From assembly GCA_002457715.1 (NCBI GenBank), contig NTKN01000005.1:1-41125 (forward strand): a stretch of 41,125 nucleotides of DNA, written 5' to 3'. The notes beneath the pieces were generated by a model that did no database searches, was not told the origin of the DNA, and worked only from the letters and a program-made list of their open reading frames with translations. The stretch comes from Cryomorphaceae bacterium MED-G14 (GTDB lineage: Bacteria > Bacteroidota > Bacteroidia > Flavobacteriales > Flavobacteriaceae). Within the stretch, counting starts at the first letter, position 1. Each line of letters begins with the position of its first letter. Below, in pieces: positions 34,925 to 36,833 of this stretch. The position numbers and the translations under genes are program-made.

Positions 34925-36315
34925 TTTAATTCTGCTTTTTCAATTGATTTCATTAATGCTCCAACTTTATTGTATACTTCATTTAATTCATTTTTTGGAA
35001 CAGATTTCGAGACTACTCCAGCACCAGCTTGAAAATACAATGATTGGTTTTTTGATAAAAATGATCTTATAATAATTGCATGGTTAAAGTTCCCTTCAGT
35101 ATCAATCATTCCAATTGCTCCACCATAGAATTGTCTTTTTGATGTCTCATAGTGATTTATTAATTCCATTGCTTTGTACTTAGGTGCACCTGTCAAAGTT
35201 CCAGCTGGAAATGTATTACCAATTATTTCCTTAGATTTTGATTTAAGAGTACCTGTAACCTTTGATACCAAATGAATTACATGAGAGTAAAACTGAATTT
35301 CTCTGTCTTTTTCCACAACAACATCTTTACATGATCTACTTAAATCATTTCTTGCAAGATCCACAAGCATCATGTGTTCACTATTTTCTTTATCATCCTT
35401 TAATAATTCCTTAGCTTTTTCTCTATCAAAATTATCATCTCCTGTTCTCTTAAATGTTCCTGCAATAGGATGAATTTCTGCCTTTTGATTAGTAATAACT
35501 AATTGAGCTTCAGGTGAACTTCCAAAGATTTTAAATTTACCATAGTCAAAATAAAATAGATATGGTGATGGATTTATAGATCTTAAATTTCTGTAAACAT
35601 TAAAATCATCACCTTGAAAGGGTTGTACAAATTTTCTTGACAAAACTATTTGAAATACATCCCCTCGCATACAATGAGAAATACCGTTTTTAGCCAGTTT
35701 TATAAATTCTTTATCAGTTAGATTTGATTTAATATCTCCAATTTTTTTAAAATTGAAATTAGAAATAGCTTTATTAAATATTAATTTTTCAATCTTATTT
35801 ATTTCATCATTATCATTTGAAAAAGAAATAATTGTTGAATGATTATTAAAAGTATTTACAACGATAATATTTTCATATAAACAGTATAGTATTTCAGGTA
35901 TACTATCTCCATAATTTTCATTTTGGAGTTTAATATTTTCGAAGTAGTTAATTGAATCATAACTCATATACCCGTAAATTCCTTTGCTCTGGAATTTATC
36001 ATTTTTAAATTCAGTGGAAAATTCAAACGAACCAATGAATTCATTAAGTTTTTCTAAAACCGATTCATTATCATTAATTACTTCTGTGATAGATTCTTTA
36101 TCAGGATATTTTGTTATAATATTATTATTTTCTACCTGAAATTTTGCTATTGGTTTGAAGCATATATAAGCGTAACTATTATCTTTTGAGCTGTAATCAC
36201 TGCTTTCTAGTAATATAGAATTTGCATAATTGTCTCTTATCTTTAAATAAATACTTACAGGTGTTAATGTATCTGTAATTACTTCTTTTCTATTTTCATT
36301 TAATTTAAACCTCAT
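34921..36315 (-). CDS. trpE: Anthranilate synthase component I; start corrected to ATG at 36315 (MRFKLNENRK...)
   Basis: 'PAGTLTGAPKYKAMELI', 'GAIGMIDTEGNFNHAIIIRSF', 'QAGAGVVSKSVP'. The ORF-track start at 36345 is a TTG inside the terminator hairpin. Confidence 0.96.
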   Translation of the reverse strand: MRFKLNENRKEVITDTLTPVSIYLKIRDNYANSILLESSDYSSKDNSYAYICFKPIAKFQVENNNIITKYPDKESITEVINDNESVLEKLNEFIGSFEFSTEFKNDKFQSKGIYGYMSYDSINYFENIKLQNENYGDSIPEILYCLYENIIVVNTFNNHSTIISFSNDNDEINKIEKLIFNKAISNFNFKKIGDIKSNLTDKEFIKLAKNGISHCMRGDVFQIVLSRKFVQPFQGDDFNVYRNLRSINPSPYLFYFDYGKFKIFGSSPEAQLVITNQKAEIHPIAGTFKRTGDDNFDREKAKELLKDDKENSEHMMLVDLARNDLSRSCKDVVVEKDREIQFYSHVIHLVSKVTGTLKSKSKEIIGNTFPAGTLTGAPKYKAMELINHYETSKRQFYGGAIGMIDTEGNFNHAIIIRSFLSKNQSLYFQAGAGVVSKSVPKNELNEVYNKVGALMKSIEKAELK

Positions 36316-36320
36316 ATAAT

Positions 36321-36350
36321 AAAAAAAGGCTTGTCGCAATGACAAGCCTT
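36321..36350 (-). terminator. Putative trp attenuator: intrinsic terminator between leader ORF and trpE
   Basis: Minus strand AAGGCTTGTC-ATTGC-GACAAGCC TTTTTTT: perfect 10-bp stem, 5-nt loop, U7 tract, 5 nt before trpE ATG. Confidence 0.9.
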
Positions 36351-36371
36351 AAATATTTTAAAATTTTAAAC

Positions 36372-36431
36372 TTATAGCGACAGGAGCTTAAACTTTAATA
36401 AGTGCCACCAAAATTTAAAACTGTTATTCAT
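36372..36431 (-). CDS. trpL: Putative trp operon leader peptide MNNSFKFWWHLLKFKLLSL*
   Basis: 20-codon ORF with tandem TGG TGG, 21 nt upstream of the terminator hairpin of the trp operon; absent from supplied ORF track. Confidence 0.85.
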   Translation of the reverse strand: MNNSFKFWWHLLKFKLLSL

Positions 36432-36515: not shown

Positions 36516-36833
36516 ATGAATTTGAATATCCAAGATTGGAAAACAAATAAAGAGTCAAGCTCAAAAAATATATGTTTAGATGTAAGAACTCATGAAGAAT
36601 TTAATGAAGGATATATTTATAATTCCATAAATATAGATTTTTATAAATCAATGGAATTTATGAAGTTTTTGGAAAAAAGTTCAAAGGATGAAAATTATTA
36701 TGTTTATTGTAGATCAGGTAAAAGAAGTTATGCGGCATGTAAGATAATGAAAGAATTTGGTTTTAATAATGTCTTTAATCTTGATGGTGGTTTTTTAAAA
36801 TGGGTTGAATGTGGTTTTGAAGTAAATGAATAG
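36516..36833 (+). CDS. Rhodanese-like domain-containing protein
   Basis: 'LDVRTHEEFNEGYIYNSINID', 'YCRSGKRSYAACKIMKEFGF'. Confidence 0.93.
   Translation: MNLNIQDWKTNKESSSKNICLDVRTHEEFNEGYIYNSINIDFYKSMEFMKFLEKSSKDENYYVYCRSGKRSYAACKIMKEFGFNNVFNLDGGFLKWVECGFEVNE

Follow-up and report, generated by a model that had tools for sequence, protein, structure and literature searches.

A probable trp attenuator related to Bacteroid-trp in a flavobacterium, with a predicted antiterminator directed at the terminator loop and 3' arm

Main finding

A stretch of 41,125 nt from Cryomorphaceae bacterium MED-G14 (contig NTKN01000005.1, hereafter the window) was analysed with respect to the short region that precedes trpE on the minus strand. 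This region is very probably a ribosome-mediated transcription attenuator of trpEGDCFBA, a divergent relative of the Bacteroid-trp RNA class (Rfam RF01692), in which the antiterminator is formed with the loop and the 3' arm of the terminator. Ribosome-mediated trp attenuation had been proposed in a preliminary description of the same DNA and is retained here as the best reading, as a short ORF, its Trp codons and a terminator are conserved before trpE and an antiterminator covaries with its target. The preliminary description left undecided whether the class was already catalogued; for the Bacteroidetes it is, under RF01692.

Leader ORF, terminator and trp operon

The leader peptide ORF (MNNSFKFWWHLLKFKLLSL, followed by a stop codon) occupies positions 36431-36372 on the minus strand and comprises 19 codons, with the tandem Trp control codons TGG TGG at 36410-36405. 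Its start, the WW and its length are kept in the close relatives L033-L036, and the ORF is predicted to be translated. Downstream on the same strand lies an intrinsic terminator hairpin, AAGGCTTGTC-ATTGC-GACAAGCCTT (36350-36326), with a perfect 10-bp stem and a 5-nt loop (AUUGC). Its U-tract runs to 36321, and the trpE ATG at 36315 is found 5 nt beyond it. The preliminary description had listed the minus-strand ORF with its tandem Trp codons, the perfect hairpin, the U-tract and the spacing to trpE; every element was present as described. It had also objected that the supplied ORF track opens trpE at a TTG inside the terminator stem. The track does so, at 36345, and the relatives back the ATG at 36315 as the true start.

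The trpE gene (36315-34921, minus strand) carries the Pfam domains Anth_synt_I_N and Chorismate_bind. It is followed on the minus strand by the ORFs of trpG, trpD, trpC, trpF, trpB and trpA (34924-30039; Pfam GATase, Glycos_transf_3, IGPS, PRAI, PALP and Trp_syntA), so that an intact operon in the order trpEGDCFBA, as judged by Pfam, stands downstream of the leader. On the other side a divergent gene with a rhodanese domain (36516-36830, plus strand) was found, and the leader sits between this gene and the trp operon.

The arrangement of leader and terminator is far beyond chance. Two terminator-like sites, representing one hairpin read on both strands, were detected in the window against 0.2 expected. 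The combination of a WW mini-ORF and a strong terminator occurs once in the real window and in none of 40 dinucleotide-preserving shuffles of the whole window, and folding of the leader gave z = -5.1 relative to shuffles.

Predicted transcript start

A predicted -7 promoter box, TATATTTG (consensus TAnnTTTG), is located at 36443-36436 on the minus strand and ends 4 nt before the leader ATG. It falls outside the interval 36321-36431 of the preliminary description, which takes in the leader and the terminator. In Flavobacterium psychrophilum the TAnnTTTG box is positioned at -12 to -5 (PMC9723704). By this rule the +1 of the window transcript would be placed at 36431, on the start codon itself. 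The box, or a one-base variant of it, ends exactly 4 nt before an ATG or GTG in all 11 distinct leaders of the same genus, and in the wider family the spacing between box and start varies, with peaks at 5 and at 17-19 nt. The leader ORF is thus predicted to be leaderless in this genus, beginning with the first base of the transcript. The trpL of Sinorhizobium meliloti, which belongs to an unrelated phylum and likewise contains a Trp leader ORF, is reportedly leaderless; the leaderless start proposed here comes from promoter spacing only.

Relationship to Bacteroid-trp

Bacteroid-trp was described by Weinberg and colleagues in 2010 (PMC2864571), and its occurrence before the trp operon is mentioned in a paper on F. 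psychrophilum (PMC6414381). The window leader is a divergent member or relative of this catalogued class, and the class itself is not new. The preliminary description had named RF00513 (Trp_leader) as the Rfam family to search; this family was absent from the matches up to E 5, and RF01692 proved to be the correct one. The leader lies upstream of trp biosynthesis genes in the Bacteroidetes, as members of RF01692 do, and the genome belongs to a flavobacterial family by whole-genome kinship.

Against RF01692 the window copy aligns to the whole model (1-131) and scores 26.4 bits (cut-off 49; E 0.94 in a 501-base search), which is below the curated cut-off. At E 0.1, 130 of 150 sampled same-family genomes match the model and 97 pass the cut-off; at this threshold no match was reported in the window's own genome. 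A second model, R1, was built from 60 leaders of other genera (alignment A1), most of them RF01692 matches, which were extended through the terminator. R1 finds the window leader at 36447-36318 with 64.6 bits (E 9.1e-12), the next best hit on the minus strand of the window reaching 16.3 bits, and its scores for leaders from same-genus genomes reach 65 bits. Since R1 was built without the genus and nevertheless finds it, the window leader is considered homologous to the class although its score stays under the curated cut-off, a threshold for detection. The secondary matches of R1 within the genus turned out to be gene ends with ordinary terminators, and no further trp leaders were found among them.

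The window copy has in common with Bacteroid-trp its place before trpE, an ORF with Trp codons and the terminator 5' arm AAGGCUUGUC. It differs in being shorter, in reading WWH for WWW and in having a different hairpin. The Trp codons do lie in the 5' arm of a strong hairpin, yet many of the RF01692 consensus pairs are non-standard in the alignment. Rfam Phe_leader also matched at the same place (23.2 bits, cut-off 55); this was rejected as a chance match, the ORF containing two separate Phe codons besides WW and standing before trpE.

Two further arrangements were observed in other families. A Bacteroid-trp leader above the cut-off in a distant family (L176, genome G421) precedes an apparent trpB rather than trpE, and its GUCGUA could base-pair with UGCGAC, which belongs to the loop and arm of the terminator. 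In the genome of another family (L061), trpE is preceded by two tandem trp leaders (minus strand, 3213-3073 and 3064-2916); both contain Trp codons, and each has a separate terminator.

Conservation across relatives

Conservation in relatives had been proposed beforehand as a check, and it bore the reading out: same-genus and same-family genomes keep the short ORF with its Trp codons, and the terminator, upstream of trpE. WW or WWW was found in 153 of the 161 fetched loci, where the WW scan itself requires TGGTGG; the same-genus loci were located by TrpE alone and have the same arrangement before trpE. Across the family, WW or WWW is retained while the remaining peptide drifts. The terminator stem is conserved in 60 relatives, with compensatory changes at seven of its ten pairs, and the terminator loop UCACGA is highly conserved across the family. 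RNAalifold, run on the family alignment, returned only the terminator.

Pairing of the leader with the terminator

The RF01692 model stops at the terminator 5' arm and contains neither the terminator nor an antiterminator, and because it ends there it cannot show what opposes termination. From the comparison of leaders, the terminator loop and the beginning of the 3' arm are probably bound by a leader element located about 18 nt downstream of the last Trp codon, a mechanism absent from the Rfam model. In the window the putative antiterminator element UGUCGC (36382-36377, minus strand) begins 22 nt past the last Trp codon, within the final codons of the leader ORF. Its target GCGACA (36337-36332, minus strand) consists of the last 2 nt of the loop and the first 4 nt of the terminator 3' arm.

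The best contiguous pairing of the terminator with the leader stretch beyond the Trp codons was determined for 140 distinct leaders and involves, on average, 4.2 nt of the loop, 2.3 nt of the 3' arm and 0.5 nt of the 5' arm. The commonest pair is UCGUGA with UCACGA. Elsewhere both partners have changed together. The window and its closest relatives have UGUCGC/GCGACA (CUGUCGC/GCGACAG in L034), and other species of the same genus have ACAUUGA/UCAAUGU. Further such pairs are seen in L114 (UUGUCGCAA/UUGCGACAA), L156 (UGCGAUGAU/GUCAUCGCG), L059 (GAGAAGCG/UGCUUCUC) and the second leader of L061 (UGUGGG/CCCACA). Most weight is given to these independent lineages, because related sequences inflate covariation tests. 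Pairing of this kind was absent in a few loci (L138, L148 and L152), and in many relatives it displaces just part of the terminator stem.

Complementarity between leader and target had a mean of 16.9, compared with 15.4 when targets were swapped among loci (sd 0.14; maximum of 200 swaps 15.85) and 10.9 with shuffled leaders. For the 27 loci with divergent loops the mean was 16.1 against 12.5 after swapping, a value as high being reached in 0 of 1000 permutations. In a structure-blind alignment the antiterminator helix is 89% paired and four of its seven pairs have changed on both sides; its covariation score was reached by 0 of 500 shuffles, and versions of the helix slid along the alignment are 7-56% paired.

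These values bear on the first of four rival explanations, that attenuation here is classical, with the leader pairing to the terminator 5' arm and the match to loop and 3' arm being incidental. It is the textbook design, the his and phe leaders in this genus employ it, and it probably occurs in one distant trp leader (L197, below). For Bacteroid-trp leaders, however, the 5'-arm pairing known from E. coli trp showed no excess: complementarity to that arm scored 10.3, compared with 11.1 for shuffled leaders. In 123 of 140 loci most of the best helix falls on the 3' side, and it is the loop-side pairing that covaries. We regard classical attenuation of this operon as quite unlikely.

A separate observation concerns L197 (genome G464), an RF01692 match in which UCAAAGUC is complementary to the terminator 5' arm GACUUUGA. 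Its sequence suggests an apparently classical design and thus a switch of design within the Bacteroid-trp class.

Geometry and folding energies

Across loci the element starts 17-19 nt (interquartile range) past the last Trp codon, despite a shifting stop codon that may fall before, in or after the element depending on the locus. Generic ribosome footprints were used rather than those of a Bacteroidetes ribosome. On this basis, a ribosome at the stop codon overlaps the element in 131 of 137 loci. A ribosome at the last Trp codon does not reach the element, which is partly due to the construction of the search. In the window the element is likewise clear of a ribosome stalled at the Trp codons and within the footprint of one at the stop codon.

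To represent the stalled state, the nucleotides beneath a ribosome at the last Trp codon were left out and the 3' arm was transcribed as far as 6 nt; the resulting energies are equilibrium proxies. With a half-made terminator and a stalled ribosome, the antiterminator was favoured in 131 of 137 loci, or 132 of 140 by another count, compared with 10 of 137 when no ribosome was present, and it was favoured in 10% when the leaders in the stalled state were dinucleotide-shuffled. For the window, the antiterminator reaches -13.9 kcal/mol and the terminator -8.8 kcal/mol once 6 nt of the 3' arm are out, and the advantage holds until 8 nt are out. When complete, the terminator (-18.3 kcal/mol) is better than the antiterminator (-16.1 kcal/mol) by about 2 kcal/mol. 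The switch would therefore have to be kinetic, because the finished terminator beats the antiterminator.

In the minimum free energy fold of the unoccupied window leader, UGUCGC is paired with GUGGCA, the second Trp codon plus flanking bases. It is exactly this pairing that a ribosome waiting on the Trp codons would release, since GUGGCA includes the second of them. For relatives, a proposed anti-antiterminator helix (UUACG with CGUGA) is 70% paired with weak covariation, and slid controls covary similarly. As judged by comparison and folding only, the antiterminator is exclusive of the terminator and is exposed when a ribosome stalls on the Trp codons.

The pairing could instead be a pseudoknot that makes termination stronger, for instance because it holds the loop of the terminator. 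In many relatives loop bases predominate in the helix (mean 4.2 nt, compared with 2.3 nt from the 3' arm), which would let most of the stem coexist with it. In the window, on the other hand, four of the six target bases belong to the 3' arm and the stem cannot fully form, the element is hidden without a stalled ribosome, and a stall at the Trp codons would raise termination in starvation, the wrong sign for a biosynthetic operon. We give the pseudoknot an even smaller chance than classical attenuation.

Proposed mechanism

Anatomy, conservation, covariation of the pairing and geometry are evident from the sequences; beyond these we infer Trp sensing, antitermination, a translated ORF with a leaderless start, the direction and extent of regulation and the kinetic order of folding. 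In attenuation by a block of loop and 3' arm, transcription would start at or beside the leader ATG. With abundant Trp-tRNA, the ribosome would clear the Trp codons and reach the stop codon, where its footprint would cover UGUCGC; after its release, the refolded Trp-codon region (GUGGCA) would hold the element. With UGUCGC covered or held, the terminator hairpin would form and transcription would end just before trpE. If Trp-tRNA runs short, the ribosome would wait at UGG UGG and open the hairpin that holds UGUCGC, leaving the element free beyond its footprint. As the loop and the first bases of the 3' arm emerge from RNA polymerase, UGUCGC would pair with GCGACA and block nucleation of the terminator stem, and RNA polymerase would continue into trpE.

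Two further explanations are the least probable. The terminated leader RNA or its peptide might act in trans, similar to rnTrpL and peTrpL of S. meliloti, with the conserved loop as a seed. A trans-acting trp leader peptide is known in that species (PMC7298713), and the family as a whole strongly conserves the loop UCACGA. In divergent lineages, however, the loop changes together with the leader element, which is unexpected for fixed targets in trans, and such a role and attenuation are not exclusive of each other; as a replacement for attenuation it is scarcely credible. Equally improbable is an untranslated ORF with only a terminator, or a leader controlled by a protein or ligand, as WW or WWW is kept in a peptide that otherwise drifts, and the spacing between the Trp codons and the element is constant.

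Comparison with other attenuators

The preliminary description likened the leader to enterobacterial trpL. This holds for the Trp codons, the terminator and attenuation as such, and it fails for the antiterminator, which uses the terminator loop and 3' arm and not the 5' arm. The enterobacterial leader (RF00513, E. coli trpL) and the present one both have tandem Trp codons, alternative hairpins and a terminator before trpE. The antiterminator of E. coli trp (2:3) uses the 5' arm of the terminator, whereas here the predicted target is the terminator loop and 3' arm. Actinobacterial trp attenuators, compared here by description, have leader peptides with double or triple UGG, a terminator and an antiterminator (Seliverstov 2005, PMC1262725); they are GC-rich and described as classical.

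The closest comparison is offered by other amino acid operons of the same genus. The hisG leaders (L206-L209) encode HNHH or HIHH peptides followed by terminators, and their element CUCAAGCG pairs with the terminator 5' arm CGUUUGAG. The pheA leaders (L212-L223) encode Phe/Tyr-rich peptides, also with terminators, and their element CAGGAUUUU pairs with the terminator 5' arm AAAGUCCUG. Peptides rich in control codons and intrinsic terminators are shared with the trp leader, and the hisG and pheA elements lie about 13-20 nt past the codons. They are classical, using the 5' arm, unlike the trp leader of the same genus. The recovery of the classical design in his and phe leaders by the same method argues against a search artefact as the source of the trp result. 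At the gathering cut-off, no Rfam family matched the hisG and pheA leaders scanned; structured 5' elements are reported to precede both genes in flavobacteria (PMC9723704).

Significance

Rfam has listed Bacteroid-trp since 2010, the structure given there ends before the terminator, and no published mechanism for the class was found in the openly readable literature. The antiterminator design based on the loop and 3' arm appears to be undescribed in that literature and differs from the textbook attenuator. On balance, we lean towards the wider view that the Bacteroid-trp class as a whole represents a distinct attenuator design with a block of loop and 3' arm, used beside classical his and phe leaders in the same cells and leaderless in the small-genome genus.

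The covarying element would provide Bacteroid-trp with a concrete switch and set the class apart from the textbook trp attenuator. Dependence on ribosome position would imply that the leading ribosome stays close behind RNA polymerase, which bears on the coupling of transcription and translation in the Bacteroidetes. The curated RF01692 model misses streamlined marine lineages, and its extension through the terminator recovers them.
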